From positions 578 to 64,577 of the forward strand of contig JADFXU010000005.1 in assembly GCA_015233365.1 (NCBI GenBank): 64,000 nt of DNA, in the 5' to 3' direction. Made by a program: the position numbers and the translations under genes. Of the stretch, positions 1 through 6,626 are shown one piece after another. Origin of the DNA: Nitrospirota bacterium (lineage in GTDB: Bacteria > Nitrospirota > Thermodesulfovibrionia > Thermodesulfovibrionales > Dissulfurispiraceae). Below the pieces are notes generated by a model. It was given only the letters and a program-made list of their open reading frames with translations. It had not been told where the DNA came from and did no database searches. The first letter of the stretch is position 1; each line of letters opens with the position of its first letter.

Positions 1-107
1 TGGTCAATTTTATCTCACTCGATGGAGAATCTCACTGGATGGAGGGTGTGCAACTCCTTGCGCTTTACATAATTTTAGGCATAGCATATTTCTTTTTACC
101 ATTATGA
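1..107 (+). CDS. cax: C-terminal end of a Ca2+/H+ antiporter (Cax), truncated by window edge
   Basis: Translation [34 protein letters not shown] is identical to the C-terminus of the minus-strand ORF 5520..6626; only two synonymous nucleotide differences seen. Confidence 0.85.
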
Positions 108-227
108 GTACCCTGCGGCAAAAGACCGCAGATGTCATGTTGGATTGACACTGTTTGAATACTGTGCTATTTATTAGAGGATCGCTCAATTTGGGTGCAA
201 AATGAACCGTGACATTTAAGGAGAAGG

Positions 228-2531
228 ATGGAAACGCTGTATGACACCATAGATGATTATCAGGAATATGAGTCAACTTATTATAAAAACTCAGGCAATA
301 CTGCCGTTAAAAGGTCGAAAGTATTAAACCTTGAAGACTATAAAAAAGCCGGCTTTAAAAAACCCTCTGTTTTCTTGGAGCTTCACGGCGGCCTTTCCGA
401 TGCACGGCTGAATTGTGAAATAAAACACTCCATGCGCGGAAGGCTCCGAATAAAGGTCTCCCTTTTGGCTGCATATAAGGACTTGAGTATTGCCCTTGGC
501 GACTATATCAAAAGCCAGGCAGGTGTAGTCAGGGTGGATACTAATTACTACTGCGGAAGCTTTACGATTCATTACGATACGGAGGCCGCACAGCAGGACG
601 CTATTGTTTTCTCCGTAACAAAACTAACTCTTGGAGAGGTTATAAGACTTGATAAAAAACCTGTCCAGGAAAAAACCGAAGATAAAGACATATCGCTTTC
701 GTACGTTAAGTGGGCATCGACGGCAGCCGGGTTAAGTCTACTCTTAGGCGGCATTCCGGCCGTTGGCATCATAGTTGTTTATCCCCTATTGTTTTATATA
801 AGCGTACCCGTCTATAAAAGGGCGTACCGGTGTATTACAAAAGAGCGTCGTCTGAACGTGGATTTCCTCGATGCAGCGGCTTTTACAGTCGGAGTCCTCA
901 CAGGGGACGTCGTAAATGCATCGGCGATGGTGTGGTTAATCCACCTCGGAGATTACATAAGGGACTTGACAGCCGCCAGTTCACATAAAACCATAAGAAA
1001 ACTCCTTGATTTCCAGGAAAACCACGCATGGGTCGTGAGGGGTGAGGTCGAGGTAAAAATCAGGGTAAAGGACCTCGTACCCGGCGACGTGGTATCTTTA
1101 AACGTAGGCAACCTTATCCCCATAGACGGCGAAATAATAGACGGCGAAATAATCGTCGATCAGCAGGTCCTGACAGGCGAATCGTTTCCGGTACATAAGG
1201 AAAAGGGCGATACCGTTTTAGCTTCGACGGTCATAAAAGACGGTAAGGCATACGTCAGGGTGATTAAAACCGGCGACAATACTAAAGTGGCGCAAATAGT
1301 AAAGATGGTCGAAGAAGCGCCCATTTACGAGACCAAAATCCAGAATCACGCAGAGAAATTTGCGGATAAAATCGTCATGCCTTCCCTTATCACCACAGGT
1401 TTGCTCTTTGCCACTACGTTGAATCTTTCCCACCTGGCAGCGCTCCTTACTGTTGATTTCGGTACCGGAGTCAGGGTCTCTGCGCCTACTTCCGTCCTTG
1501 CTTCGATGATCTCTGCGGCCTCACACGGCATTCTTATAAAAGGCGGCAGCTATCTCGAAAAACTCTATCATGTTGATACCATAGTATTCGATAAAACCGG
1601 GACCCTCACCACCGGAGTGATTAAGGTGGAAGACGTAATCGGCTTTAACGGGTTTTCTCTCGATGAAATAATCTCATATGCCGCTACTGCAGAGTTTCAG
1701 ATGACGCACCCTATAGCTGAGGCCGTTGTAAAATATGCCGAAAGCAACGATATCGGCCTGAAAAAAAGGGACGCCGTCCAATACTGCGTGGGACGCGGCG
1801 TGGATGCCGCAATCGATGGCAAGTGCGTGCTCGTGGGAAGTTTAAGACTGCTTGGGGAACAATCGATTCCTGTGGACGACGAGGTAATAAGCATCACGGA
1901 CAGACTTGTAGCGGAAGGCAAGGCAGCCCTTTACGTAGCTATTGACGGACGGCTTTCGGGAATTATTTCTTTCAGGGACCAGATTAGAAAAGAGGCAAAA
2001 GAGATGATAGACGACCTTCACAGGCTTGGCATAAAACAGGTGATTATGCTTACCGGTGATGTCAGGAAGGTGGCCTTGCCGGTAGCAAAGGCCCTTGGTA
2101 TAGACCAATGTATAGCCGAGGTACTTCCCGAACAAAAGGCCGAGGTCGTTATAGATCTGAAGAATAAAGGTCATATGGTGGCCTTTGTCGGTGATGGCAT
2201 AAACGACTCGGTTGCACTTTCTTATGCAGAGATAGGAATTTCCGTAAAGGGCGGAGCGGATATAACCAAGGAGACGGCAGGGGTAATCCTTCTGGACGAT
2301 AACCTCAACAAGATACCGAAGGCCTTTGAAATAAGCAAAGAGACCATTAAGCTAATCAAGGAAAATTACACGATAACCGGAGGGTTTAACATCGTTGCGT
2401 ATATGCTCGCCGCCGTAGGCTTAGTAAGCCCCGTTATGAGCACTTTAATAAGTAACGGCTCTGCCATCGTGGCATGTGTTAATGGAATGAAACCTGTCAT
2501 TAAAATGAAGATGGACGGTCGCGGAAGGTAA
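228..2531 (+). CDS. P1B-type heavy-metal-translocating P-type ATPase with N-terminal CxxC-less HMA-like domain
   Basis: LTGES, DKTGTLTTG, MTHPIAEAV (HP motif), GDGINDS; N-terminal IKHSMRGRLRIKV...VDTNYYCGSFTIHYD domain. Confidence 0.93.
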   Translation: METLYDTIDDYQEYESTYYKNSGNTAVKRSKVLNLEDYKKAGFKKPSVFLELHGGLSDARLNCEIKHSMRGRLRIKVSLLAAYKDLSIALGDYIKSQAGVVRVDTNYYCGSFTIHYDTEAAQQDAIVFSVTKLTLGEVIRLDKKPVQEKTEDKDISLSYVKWASTAAGLSLLLGGIPAVGIIVVYPLLFYISVPVYKRAYRCITKERRLNVDFLDAAAFTVGVLTGDVVNASAMVWLIHLGDYIRDLTAASSHKTIRKLLDFQENHAWVVRGEVEVKIRVKDLVPGDVVSLNVGNLIPIDGEIIDGEIIVDQQVLTGESFPVHKEKGDTVLASTVIKDGKAYVRVIKTGDNTKVAQIVKMVEEAPIYETKIQNHAEKFADKIVMPSLITTGLLFATTLNLSHLAALLTVDFGTGVRVSAPTSVLASMISAASHGILIKGGSYLEKLYHVDTIVFDKTGTLTTGVIKVEDVIGFNGFSLDEIISYAATAEFQMTHPIAEAVVKYAESNDIGLKKRDAVQYCVGRGVDAAIDGKCVLVGSLRLLGEQSIPVDDEVISITDRLVAEGKAALYVAIDGRLSGIISFRDQIRKEAKEMIDDLHRLGIKQVIMLTGDVRKVALPVAKALGIDQCIAEVLPEQKAEVVIDLKNKGHMVAFVGDGINDSVALSYAEIGISVKGGADITKETAGVILLDDNLNKIPKAFEISKETIKLIKENYTITGGFNIVAYMLAAVGLVSPVMSTLISNGSAIVACVNGMKPVIKMKMDGRGR

Positions 2532-2665
2532 AGAATGGCGGCATGCCACAGCTTGCCGGGGAAACGCTTATCGGAAAATCCGGACCAGGCACCATGTTGC
2601 TATAAATAATAACAGTGAGTATAATAACGTATTGTTTTCCGGTTAAATAAAAGGAGGAACTGATA

Positions 2666-2905
2666 ATGGAAGAATTATTGGCTGGAGTATTAGGCGGTGC
2701 AGTGGTATTGGTTGCCGGCAAATCGGATTTTTTTAGAAATGCCTTAAAAGGGCTGATGAAAATGGGTTATGCCGTGTCCGATAAAGTAACATCGTGCGGC
2801 GGTGAAACCACAGAATCCATAAAAGACCTTTTAGCCGAAAGCAAATCGGAATACGAGGCAGCAAAGGCTGCAACTGCTGAAGCAAAGATCCAGAGCAAGG
2901 CTTAA
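2666..2905 (+). CDS. Small protein with Gly-rich hydrophobic N-terminus and charged helical tail (DUF5132-like architecture)
   Basis: 79 aa, MEELLAGVLGGAVVLVAGKSDFFRNALKGLMKMGY...SIKDLLAESKSEYEAAKAA; RBS aaaggagg upstream; located between ATPase and HMA-like genes. Confidence 0.6.
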   Translation: MEELLAGVLGGAVVLVAGKSDFFRNALKGLMKMGYAVSDKVTSCGGETTESIKDLLAESKSEYEAAKAATAEAKIQSKA

Positions 2906-2925
2906 TGGAGATTATGTAGATTCAC

Positions 2926-3276
2926 ATGGCAAAGTGTGAAGTAGTACACCATATACGAGGCAGGGTAAGGCTGAGGGTGCCTTCGCTAGGGAATGAAGAC
3001 TGCTTGGAACAACTGAGCCATCTTTTATCAAATGATAAGAGAATAAGCAGTGCTTCCTTTAATAAGGCATGTTGCAGCCTTACCCTCACCTATAAGCCCG
3101 TAGATATTTCAGTAAAAGAAATAATCGATATAATCGCCTCAGGCTGTGAAAAAGCTCCAGGGCAAACACCGGTTGTAACCGATACCAATACCCGGACCAC
3201 CGAAAAACCGGCAGGGAAGGCGAAAGCTGGAATATCGAGAGGTAAAGCTCCGGCCAAAAAACGCTCTAAAGTATAG
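2926..3276 (+). CDS. HMA-like (HMA_2-type) domain protein with basic C-terminal tail
   Basis: CEVVHHIRGRVRLRVPSL...SASFNKACCSLTLTY parallels the N-terminal domain of the 228..2531 ATPase; lysine/arginine-rich tail. Confidence 0.65.
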   Translation: MAKCEVVHHIRGRVRLRVPSLGNEDCLEQLSHLLSNDKRISSASFNKACCSLTLTYKPVDISVKEIIDIIASGCEKAPGQTPVVTDTNTRTTEKPAGKAKAGISRGKAPAKKRSKV

Positions 3277-3292
3277 ATGGATAATAAATAAT

Positions 3293-3466
3293 ATGGGAAA
3301 CCGAACATTTTTAAAATGCCTTATGAAATTGTTTTATTCGGCAAAAGATGCAGTGCAGCCTTTGGCCGGTGAATCATTCGAGAAGCTTAAAGACATTGCA
3401 GCCGAAAGTAAAGCGGAATATGAGCTTGAAAAGATAAACGAAAAAAAAGCCAAGGCCAAACAGTAA
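3293..3466 (+). CDS. 57-aa small protein, paralogous in its tail to the 2666..2905 product
   Basis: Read directly: MGNRTFLKCLMKLFYSAKDAVQPLAGESFEKLKDIAAESKAEYELEKINEKKAKAKQ*; not in the supplied ORF list (below 60 aa). Confidence 0.6.
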   Translation: MGNRTFLKCLMKLFYSAKDAVQPLAGESFEKLKDIAAESKAEYELEKINEKKAKAKQ

Positions 3467-3472
3467 TAGTAT

Positions 3473-3997
3473 ATGAGCTCAAAATTGCCTGCCTTGAATG
3501 CGCTGCCGCTCTCCGGGGAAGAATTAAACGATAAGGAAGTCGGGATATTTATTCCTTTTGAAATAAAACACTCTATCCCGGGAAGACTCAGAGTGTCATC
3601 GGCAGCATTGAGGGACGAAAAGTCTCTAATTAAAGCCCTTAACGCTAAAATGAGAAACATGGAGGGCATTAAAAAAGTCTTTGCAAACTCACTGTGCGGC
3701 AGCATCACGATTCACTACGACGCCAATTCAACAGATAAAGATAAAATAGTACAAAACCTGATCACCATTAATATAAACGAAGTCGTTCTCGAAAACTTGC
3801 CGATAGTTATATCCGGCGATAAGCACATAAGTCATAATAAATTATATACGCTGCTCAGCCGCGTCCTTGCTGTGGCCGGCGTTGCCCTGTTCGTACTGCC
3901 GGGAATACCCGGCGCTCCGATTTTACTGTTGTCGGCTTATTTTTATCGAAAAGCCCGGGCAACCCATACTACAAACTCGCCGCAAATAACTGCCTAG
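3473..3997 (+). CDS. HMA-like domain protein with C-terminal hydrophobic segment
   Basis: FEIKHSIPGRLRVSSAALRD...VFANSLCGSITIHYD parallels the ATPase N-terminus; VLAVAGVALFVLPGIPGAPILLLSAYFY hydrophobic C-terminus. Confidence 0.7.
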   Translation: MSSKLPALNALPLSGEELNDKEVGIFIPFEIKHSIPGRLRVSSAALRDEKSLIKALNAKMRNMEGIKKVFANSLCGSITIHYDANSTDKDKIVQNLITININEVVLENLPIVISGDKHISHNKLYTLLSRVLAVAGVALFVLPGIPGAPILLLSAYFYRKARATHTTNSPQITA

Positions 3998-4016
3998 GGC
4001 ACCTGTTCAACTTTCT

Positions 4017-5390
4017 TTAATCTGATTTCCGGGGGCCTCTCGTGAATTTTTTATCGAAGTCTTTATTGAGGTAAAGGCTTGCAACGCATATGTCGGTCGT
4101 GTTGTTTCCGGTTCTGAATGAGTCAGGAAGGCCGAACTGCAGCCCGATATATAGAGCTGTAAAAGCAGGAGCCATGTTCGGGGGGATATTCAGGTATATG
4201 GCCAAAGGTCCGGCAAAAAGCAAGAGTTCGCCCGGTATTCCCGGGACCCCGAAGCCGATTAAGATTACGAGCGGGATGCTCATAAGCAGTTTCACGACAG
4301 ACAGTTCAATGCCTAAAAGCTGTGCAACTGCAGCAGCCATTATGAACACGCATATAGTCGTACCGTTTATGCCGAGATAGCTCCCGGCGCCAATGATAAA
4401 CCGTCTTACCTCGGTGGCTATGTACGGATAATGTTTCTTGACCAGATGCAGGTTTAAAGGTGTAGACAGGGACTCGGATGCCGTAGACCATAAAAGGGGA
4501 TAGATGCGCACCCAATATTTACTGAAGTAATGTTTAATAGAAAAGTCTTTTAAAGTATTTTTCAAAATGACAAGAAATCCGATATGCCATATAATACAGG
4601 CAAGTCCTACTAAAAGAGAAGTAACTACGTAGGCCAGAATTATCCCGACAGACGTATTTACCGGCAGTCTTCCCCAAATTAAATTTAAGTCGCCAAGCCT
4701 GGCCCCCGTTAATTCCTTCATTGAAAGATGGCCGTTAAGCTCAAGAGGAAGGGTATAGACAAATGCCCCTATGGCAAACATAAAGACAGGAACGAGGGGC
4801 AAAAACAATTCACCAAGTTTCTCTATCAGGGCATAGATTTTCCCCAGCACGCCCCCTATAATCTTATATCTTTGAAAAAGCACTACTGTTATTAAAGCCG
4901 CATATATGGCATAAAAATATGTACTATGCGTCATAGTCGTAACGATGGAAGAAAGGGTCTGCACGATCGATTTTCCAAGGCTGCCTCCGGAATTCGTATA
5001 AAAGGGCAGTTTAAATACAATAGCGGTGAAAACTATAGACCATAAACAGGCATAAAGGCGCAGCCTTATGAGCCATAGCACCGCGTAACTTGCGAAATAC
5101 CCCCTGCCGAGCTCTATTATATGAGCTATCGAAGGGGCTAATATAAAGTAAATAATAAAAGGTGCTATATATTCATAAAAATCTATAAAACCAGACATGC
5201 CGCTCGTTACCTTATAGCCGACACTGGGGAAATACCTGGCCGATACTATTCCGGAAATAAAGGAAAGTATTGACAGAAGCGGCAGATACCTTTCCAGGTT
5301 ATCCAAAATAGAACGATATATGGTTTTTGCCTGAATCTTTTCGATTGCGATGTTTGTTCCCATGCTCTCTCCTGGAATGACAATCAACAT
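4017..5390 (-). CDS. Multi-TM transporter, possible cation:dicarboxylate/amino acid symporter (SDF) family
   Basis: Hydrophobic 457 aa; C-terminal GVPGIPGELLLFAGPLAIYLNIPP...FRTGNNTTDICVA resembles SDF C-terminal motifs. Confidence 0.5.
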   Translation of the reverse strand: MLIVIPGESMGTNIAIEKIQAKTIYRSILDNLERYLPLLSILSFISGIVSARYFPSVGYKVTSGMSGFIDFYEYIAPFIIYFILAPSIAHIIELGRGYFASYAVLWLIRLRLYACLWSIVFTAIVFKLPFYTNSGGSLGKSIVQTLSSIVTTMTHSTYFYAIYAALITVVLFQRYKIIGGVLGKIYALIEKLGELFLPLVPVFMFAIGAFVYTLPLELNGHLSMKELTGARLGDLNLIWGRLPVNTSVGIILAYVVTSLLVGLACIIWHIGFLVILKNTLKDFSIKHYFSKYWVRIYPLLWSTASESLSTPLNLHLVKKHYPYIATEVRRFIIGAGSYLGINGTTICVFIMAAAVAQLLGIELSVVKLLMSIPLVILIGFGVPGIPGELLLFAGPLAIYLNIPPNMAPAFTALYIGLQFGLPDSFRTGNNTTDICVASLYLNKDFDKKFTRGPRKSD

Positions 5391-5519
5391 GCCATTATGC
5401 GGATTCCGGACTTTACCTTTTACGGGTAGTCTCAGCTTCCGTATTTCATCCTATTGTACCACACTCATAGTAGAACTGAGCGGCAGACAGCCGGGCAATG
5501 TGGCTTTTGTAGCGGGTAT

Positions 5520-6626
5520 TCATAATGGTAAAAAGAAATATGCTATGCCTAAAATTATGTAAAGAGCAAGGAGCTGCACACCCTCCATCCAGTGAGATTC
5601 TCCATCGAGTGAGATAAAATTGACCAGCAGGACTGCAGACACTATGGAGAAAATTTCAAGATGCGTAAAGGCCAGGTCGATGGGTGCAGGCCCCAGGAAG
5701 TAACTGATAAAAAGTAAAAGAGGGGCTAAAAACATGGCAACCTGGGAACTCGACCCTATGGCTATGGAAACGGACACGTCCATTTTATTTTTTAATGCCA
5801 TAAGTATTGCCGTGCTATTTTCGGCGGCATTTCCAACGATTGCCACCACTATGACCCCGACAAAGACCTCGTTCATCCCCAATGTTTTCGTAGCTACCTC
5901 TATAGATGTAACCATAATCTCACTCATAAAGCTGATCCCCACAGTGGCAAGCAGCAAAACGAACAGGGCGGTTTGGGTCTTCCACGGGACCATGTCATCG
6001 TGCCCTGCGCCTCCTTCAGCTGCCGTGCCGTAGAGGTGTTTATGGCTTTTTAAAGAAAACACCAGGCTGAGAATATATGTAACGAAAAGCACGATGGCAA
6101 TTGCGAGGCTGATTTTTAAGTCGAGGGCATGGATTTTAGCTTTATCTAAATTATGGCTGCCTCCCAATAACGCGCTGATAACCGCAGGCACGATAAGGGC
6201 GGACGTACAAAGTATCAGCATCGTGGAGTTAAGGCCGGCTGCCGTTGCATTAAACTTAAGGCTTTTTACCTTCACCCCCCCTGCAATGAAGCTCAGCCCT
6301 AAAACCAGCAGGATATTGCCTATAATAGAGCCGGTAATGGACGCCTTGACTACTTCGGGCAAGCCGTTTTTGATAGCAAATATCGCAATGATTAACTCCG
6401 CAGCATTTCCGAACGTTGCATTAAGGAATCCGCCTATACCAGGGCCAAGTTTTACCGCCAGATGCTCGGTGGCCGTTCCCATGATAGCGGCCAGCGGAAT
6501 TATTGCAACTGCAGAGGTAAAAAAAATCCATGTATCGTCAACATGCAAAAGCTCAAGGATAAAACTGACTGGTATAAACACCAAAAGCGCATCCAAATAA
6601 CCTAATTTATAATTACCTATTTTCAT
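5520..6626 (-). CDS. cax: Calcium/proton antiporter (CaCA family)
   Basis: GNAAELIIAIFAIKNGLPEVVKASITGSIIGN and the second repeat VGNAAENSTAILMALKNKMDVSVSIAIGSSSQ. Confidence 0.93.
   Translation of the reverse strand: MKIGNYKLGYLDALLVFIPVSFILELLHVDDTWIFFTSAVAIIPLAAIMGTATEHLAVKLGPGIGGFLNATFGNAAELIIAIFAIKNGLPEVVKASITGSIIGNILLVLGLSFIAGGVKVKSLKFNATAAGLNSTMLILCTSALIVPAVISALLGGSHNLDKAKIHALDLKISLAIAIVLFVTYILSLVFSLKSHKHLYGTAAEGGAGHDDMVPWKTQTALFVLLLATVGISFMSEIMVTSIEVATKTLGMNEVFVGVIVVAIVGNAAENSTAILMALKNKMDVSVSIAIGSSSQVAMFLAPLLLFISYFLGPAPIDLAFTHLEIFSIVSAVLLVNFISLDGESHWMEGVQLLALYIILGIAYFFLPL

Follow-up and report, generated by a model that had tools for sequence, protein, structure and literature searches.

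What kind of transport system is encoded where the gene for a P-type ATPase is accompanied by two further proteins that carry the ATPase's own N-terminal domain and by two related short proteins? The question is raised by positions 228-3997 of a 64,000-nucleotide stretch of Nitrospirota DNA (the window, on contig C55 of a 62-contig assembly that is 81% complete), for which a sequence-only reading had proposed five consecutive plus-strand open reading frames, comprising a P1B metal pump and a possible regulator, scaffold or chaperone for it. All five were found where that reading had placed them, encoding proteins of 767, 79, 116, 57 and 174 residues (Table 1). With only slightly more confidence than doubt, we favor an effluxosome-like membrane platform built around a P-type pump for a hard divalent cation, in which the tails of the short proteins dock on HMA_2 domains.

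A P1B-related pump with a cysteine-free transport site

The ATPase passes the cut-offs of TIGR01525 (E=1.3e-143) and TIGR01512; profiles and a structure model reveal a P1B catalytic core and the eight-helix layout (MA, MB, M1-M6), and its matches among solved structures are ordinary P-type pumps only, the best being Cu-exporting ATPases. The M4 and M6 motifs were compared in an alignment with 34 relatives, in which M4 of the window pump has FGT at the position where the P1B1 and P1B2 heavy-metal pumps have CPC, with no cysteine at the site. The proposed P1B core is upheld, but the loss of the M4 transport-site cysteines casts doubt on an ordinary heavy-metal substrate. A Zn, Cd or Cu resistance efflux pump served by metallochaperones would agree with the two TIGR matches; with neither CPC nor an M4-site cysteine, with no CxxC in any domain, and with the HMA_2 module tagging P2-type pumps as well, we consider it very improbable. 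The lack of CPC and of CxxC led us to reject it as first choice.

In a tree of the ATPase and its relatives, from which the M4 and M6 motif columns were removed beforehand and FezB and CtpC themselves were left out, all HMA_2-bearing P1B pumps, including CtpC-like and P1B6 pumps, form one clade (100/98). The cysteine-free pumps constitute a subclade (100/99) with members from Cyanobacteria, Deinococcus and Nitrospira; its sister group is that of the P1B6 pumps with HN (100/96), among which one has a very long branch. The subclade is characterized by D[FYI][GA][TS]G[VI]R in M4 and by SNG, NNG or SHG in M6 (SN in the window pump), compared with HN in the sister clade, a motif in transmembrane helix 6 that is a feature of P1B6 ATPases (PMC9374683). 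The candidate ligands of the window pump (D410, T413, N721, S742, N743 and S745) are all oxygen donors, any of which may bind the ion. Ca2+ or Mn2+ would be a more likely cargo than Zn2+, Cd2+ or Cu+.

The position of the sister clade also bears on a ferrosome-type alternative, in which the pump would load Fe2+ into a membrane-bound iron store and the accessory proteins would shape the organelle. FezB presumably belongs to the P1B6 class, which is that of the sister clade; relatives in Azospirillum and Cereibacter lie beside iron-transport genes, and many hosts are iron-rich magnetotactic cells. However, the Cys and HN features of P1B6 pumps have been lost, the neighbors here are Ca2+-type exchangers and not iron genes, and among the cluster proteins scanned there is no match to a DUF4405-type FezC cytochrome, ferrosome FezC being a cytochrome related to DUF4405 (PMC10979944). 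Straight ferrosome membership was not accepted, because no DUF4405 protein was found among those scanned and HN is absent, and we regard a ferrosome-type function as unlikely. In the relatives concerned (Cereibacter L076 and Azospirillum L066), P1B6-type pumps and HMA2 proteins are encoded beside FeoA, TonB receptor, FecR or iron ABC transporter genes.

HMA_2 domains and tail-bearing short proteins

A single CxxC-less domain common to three of the five proteins, as the sequence-only reading had it, is borne out by the Pfam search, which identifies it as HMA_2 (PF19991, gathering score 30 bits). The match is above this score for the ATPase N terminus (E=4.3e-8, 33.7 bits) and the 174-residue protein (54.0 bits) and narrowly under it for the 116-residue protein (E=1.6e-6, 28.6 bits), a 108-residue relative of which, at locus L042, scores 35.2 bits. 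The pairwise scores among the three domains were reached by none of 2000 shuffles of each, whereas a control pair, the ATPase and the 79-residue protein, scored at chance level. The CxxC motif of canonical HMA metallochaperone and metal-binding domains is absent from all five cluster proteins. Structure models of the ATPase and the 174-residue protein gave the same fold for their domains, i.e. beta-beta-alpha-beta-beta-alpha, which is the HMA fold plus a further strand at the N terminus, and the PDB matches of the modeled domains include HMA domains, though only at E about 0.01-0.05. The extra strand seen in the models, the conserved basic patch, the lack of CxxC, and the occurrence in monodomain, membrane and ATPase-fused forms are shared with HMA_2/CoBaHMA domain proteins; our literature search found no paper naming CoBaHMA or DUF5132. 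The DUF454 match of the 174-residue protein is weak (16.5 bits), with relatives above the cut-off (47.8 and 106.4 bits).

The association of this domain with pumps extends beyond the window. In a phylum sample of 148 genomes there are 58 standalone HMA_2 hits, 44 of which have an HMA_2-bearing ATPase no more than 10 kb away. A search with our own profiles found standalone HMA_2 and tail-bearing small open reading frames at the majority of the clade's ATPase loci (L064, with no standalone HMA_2 hit, is one of the exceptions), and neither in 57 kb of control window. The accessory proteins accompany this ATPase class in Nitrospirota, Desulfobacteraceae and Cyanobacteria, and also the sister pumps in Alphaproteobacteria. 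A lack of such co-occurrence elsewhere, named by the sequence-only reading as grounds for refuting it, was thus not observed.

The pumps so tagged are not all of one type: 13 of the 19 HMA_2-bearing ATPase open reading frames near standalone HMA_2 proteins are P2-sized, as judged by length, and the sole P2-sized one scanned for domains, on contig C22 of the window's own genome, shows PEGLP along with Cation_ATPase domains. Since P2-type pumps carry it too, the HMA_2 domain does not follow soft-metal chemistry; this, with the lack of CxxC, makes the metal chaperone part of the earlier guess unlikely, a scaffold being the best-supported role and that part of the guess largely right. The C22 cluster (L009, 7811-16509) comprises this 1039-residue P2-type ATPase with its N-terminal HMA_2 domain, a DUF5132 protein, three standalone HMA_2 proteins and a 236-residue repetitive protein, with two acyltransferase-like genes adjoining.

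Other HMA_2 proteins were observed in the course of this work. Three contigs of the window's own genome together account for eight HMA_2 matches (three in the present cluster, four on C22 and one on C26); that on C26 (18678-18848; L010, 7908-8918) is at the C terminus of a 336-residue protein with no other convincing Pfam match and with no pump nearby in the stretch read. In the Desulfobacteraceae cluster a basic linker connects an HMA_2 domain with a sigma-54 DNA-binding domain (RpoN box; L051, 11079-11633; E=3.8e-21), and the basic tail of the 116-residue protein may be a remnant of such a fusion. Close to the Gloeothece pump a YegS/diacylglycerol kinase has a C-terminal HMA_2 domain (L063, 13950-15449), as might be expected if the domain had a lipid-related role.

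The 79- and 57-residue proteins are paralogues, their pairwise score again being reached by none of 2000 shuffles. The shared tail noted earlier is present (IKDLLAESKSEYE and LKDIAAESKAEYE), but the consensus given for it fails after D[LI], where one protein has L and the other A. Of 18 small proteins encoded next to HMA_2-bearing pumps (DUF5132, DUF1490 and DUF6110 proteins included), 16 have the signature D[LIVM]xA[ED]x[KR], compared with 0.2% of shuffles, a count that describes and does not test, because the pattern was written after the alignment had been seen. Neither short protein matches DUF1490, the PacL domain; an apparent match of the 79-residue protein to fungal ATP synthase epsilon (E=0.16) was dismissed as chance. 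A profile made from window-type short proteins alone detects the other families ever more weakly, DUF1490 scoring low at the end of the series, and a protein of genome G017 matches both DUF1490 and DUF5132 weakly; common descent of the window short proteins with PacL is likely, but not proved.

With respect to the feature set of PacL, i.e. a GxxG membrane helix and an E/A tail with a glutamate equivalent to E71, encoded next to a P-ATPase gene, the 79-residue protein has all elements and the 57-residue protein the tail only, having lost the N-terminal membrane helix of about 21 residues present in its relatives of 77-78 residues and kept the tail signature. In a Rhodococcus DUF1490 protein, the numbering of which matches that published for PacL at K9, G17 and G20, the motif glutamate is residue 71. 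In PacL, the glutamate of the D-x-x-A-E-x-R/K tail is needed to hold the pump: E59A or E71A in PacL2 abolishes cadmium resistance and destabilizes CtpG, PacL1 tolerates single glutamate changes but not a triple change, and when Glu 55, 59 and 71 are changed together the pump is lost and binding to its N-terminal domain is weakened (PMC9374683, PMC13043812).

Conservation, exchangers and a PilT-like pair

A scan of 85,462 species, one genome each, with two peptide patterns yielded eight loci, namely five in Nitrospirota (two of them Magnetominusculus), two in Desulfobacterota and one in Nitrospira moscoviensis, a lower bound given how narrow the patterns are. Close, near-full-length ATPase relatives occur in only two genomes of the phylum sample, G100 and G136 (76-77% identity), with a 41% relative in G127. 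The gene set is conserved in eight contexts, i.e. at L042, L043, L045-L048 and L051 and, via contig C36, in the window's own genome (G000), including magnetotactic Nitrospirota (Magnetominusculus) and a Desulfobacteraceae genome. At the seven loci outside the window's genome, a Ca2+/H+ exchanger gene precedes the ATPase (one gene apart at L051), which is followed by small proteins, HMA_2 proteins and two PilT-like ATPases; at L050 the contig stops within the ATPase gene. In the window's own genome the PilT pair is on C36, a contig that runs into the 5' end of a cax gene 96.5% identical to cax2. Since C36 ends in cax and C55 starts inside a cax copy, we infer the order PilT1-PilT2-cax1-ATPase across the assembly gap. 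PilT1 relatives are present in exactly G000, G100 and G136 of the phylum sample, the same three genomes that have the close window-type ATPase; with so few genomes and neighboring genes, this co-occurrence reflects linkage and is not independent functional evidence.

The PilT-like pair departs from canonical pilus motors. Against a T2SSE cut-off of 24.9 bits, the window genome's PilT1 (27.3 bits) and Magnetominusculus PilT2 (72.3 bits) pass and Magnetominusculus PilT1 (18.9 bits) fails. Walker A is retained, but both histidines of the His box are lost in all, and the Walker B glutamate is replaced by aspartate, a mild change, in all but the Desulfobacteraceae PilT2. The pair therefore does not show the full set of motor features, which would be a T2SSE match together with Walker A, a Walker B glutamate and the His box; nucleotide binding is plausible from these motifs, and a normal pilus-motor cycle doubtful.

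The cluster's CaCA exchangers, which are of two kinds, together with the all-oxygen candidate ligands, raise the alternative of a storage or mineral compartment for calcium or mixed divalent cations, the lumen of which would be filled by pump and exchangers, as would suit intracellular carbonates. Magnetotactic Nitrospirota with calcium carbonate inclusions exist, and the copy numbers of the Ca2+/H+ antiporter and YrbG are reported to bear on this trait (PMC12710302). The calcifying strains, however, could not be linked to the present genomes, and in family f6, which holds the pump-bearing Magnetominusculus relatives and belongs to the same order as the window genome (the named relatives being Nitrospirota), 20 of 20 genomes have a MamE-like gene but only 6 the pump. 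We see such a compartment as a minority possibility, if the strongest of the alternatives. The f6 count also led us to reject the cluster as a part of the magnetosome; the window's own genome, at its 81% completeness, has only a shorter MamE match, DegP-like in look.

Table 1. Features of the cluster and its flanks (window positions 1-6626)
Feature	Position	Strand	Basis
cax1 3' end (Ca2+/H+ exchanger), first of the two copies on either side of the cluster	1..107	+	Inverted repeat, contig-end comparison
P1B-related cation ATPase, 767 aa, 8-TM (transmembrane) P1B layout, N-terminal HMA_2	228..2531	+	TIGR01525, PF00122, PF00702, PF19991, model helices, tree
ATPase HMA_2 domain, residues 63-134, patch IKHSMRGRLRI, no CxxC	414..629	+	
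M4 site D410-F-G-T-G-V-R416, in place of the CPC metal-binding motif	1455..1475	+	Alignment with 34 relatives
M6 site S742-N-G-S-A, replacing HN of P1B6 pumps	2451..2465	+	Alignment, tree
Short PacL/DUF5132-like protein, 79 aa, acidic tail, GxxG in N-terminal membrane helix	2666..2905	+	
Tail signature D-L-L-A-E-S-K, residues 54-60 of 79-aa protein, Glu aligning with PacL E71	2825..2845	+	
Standalone HMA_2 protein, 116 aa, Lys/Arg-rich C-terminal tail	2926..3276	+	PF19991, below cut-off
Short PacL/DUF5132-like protein, 57 aa	3293..3466	+	DUF5132 E=0.0057, below cut-off
Tail signature D-I-A-A-E-S-K, residues 34-40 of 57-aa protein	3392..3412	+	
HMA_2 and DUF454-like membrane protein, 174 aa	3473..3997	+	PF19991 E=2.3e-14; fold
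SDF-family (dicarboxylate symporter) protein	4017..5390	-	PF00375 E=3.7e-19
cax2, complete Ca2+/H+ exchanger	5520..6626	-	TIGR00378 E=3e-113

The two cax copies are about 95-97% identical in DNA and form an inverted repeat of 113 nt (97%; window 1-113 and 5514-5626, with 5400 nt between the arms), such that recombination between these opposed genes could invert the cluster. Just upstream of the window (C55, 1-577), an inverted 115-nt ATPase fragment interrupts cax1, which may be an assembly chimera. An SDF-family protein of about 41-43% identity is encoded near the cluster in relatives too, and its membership of the system is uncertain. A promoter and terminator scan gave counts close to those of shuffled sequence, and no use was made of it.

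A proposed membrane platform and its relation to known systems

In the platform that we favor, the GxxG membrane helix of the 79-residue protein would drive self-association, and acidic D-x-x-A-E-x-K tails would dock on the basic HxxxGRxR face of the HMA_2 domains of pump and adaptor proteins, holding many pumps together in one patch. ATP hydrolysis would drive a hard divalent cation from the cytosol into either the periplasm or a compartment, with the CaCA exchangers acting beside the pump, and the PilT-like pair may bind nucleotide as an accessory ring and not as a normal pilus motor. Several observations weigh against this proposal: exchanger adjacency is confined to the window subclade, none being seen at the Nitrospira, cyanobacterial and Deinococcus loci; the window's short proteins reach no cut-off in the Pfam search, and one of them has lost its membrane helix; the modeled ATPase structure is moderate in quality (mean predicted local distance difference test score 70) and has no ion at the transport site; and the iron genes beside the Azospirillum and Cereibacter relatives suggest iron for the sister clade. 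A fuller version, an ion-loading platform or compartment with a cysteine-free P1B-derived Ca2+/Mn2+ pump, clustering by PacL-like tails on HMA_2 adaptors and a repurposed, non-canonical PilT pair as organizer, spread horizontally among magnetotactic Nitrospirota and Desulfobacterota, is unlikely to hold in all its parts.

The results join mostly separate literatures, i.e. those on mycobacterial PacL effluxosomes, on P1B6/ferrosome pumps and on HMA_2/CoBaHMA proteins. The common tail signature, the glutamate of which is known from PacL2 mutation, offers a direct test of pump gathering in membranes across phyla; the same module on P2-type pumps suggests a role in location or assembly and not in choice of metal; and the cysteine-free clade illustrates how the site of a soft-metal pump may have come to serve another ion.

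The sequence-only reading described the locus as a coherent, uncharacterised system; coherent and conserved it is, but the second adjective is too strong, because there is overlap between this class and those of PacL effluxosomes, P1B6 pumps and HMA_2 proteins. As in the mycobacterial PacL/CtpC effluxosome (DUF1490 with a P1B6-like ATPase; PMC9374683, PMC13043812), a P1B-clade pump with an HMA_2-like N-terminal domain stands beside a small GxxG-helix protein with a D-x-x-A-E-x-R/K tail. By contrast with PacL, the window short proteins have neither a DUF1490 match nor a C-terminal metal-binding motif, and the window pump lacks CPC and HN, whereas the cluster adds standalone HMA_2 proteins, exchangers and the PilT-like pair. 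P1B6 pumps with DUF6110 or of the ferrosome FezB type form the sister clade and share the HMA_2-like N terminus, a small tail-bearing neighbor and accessory HMA_2 proteins, but their DxxCxxK is DxGTGxR, and their HN is SN or NN, in window-type pumps. The HMA_2-tagged P2 clusters likewise have an N-terminal HMA_2 domain on the pump, a DUF5132 protein and standalone HMA_2 proteins; they differ in that their pump is of the P2 type (with PEGLP in C22) and that of the window is P1B-related, and neither exchanger nor PilT pair was seen in the C22 cluster. Compared with HMA_2/CoBaHMA proteins, the window domain itself is no different; the novelty lies in its being combined with a PilT-like pair and a cysteine-free P1B pump.

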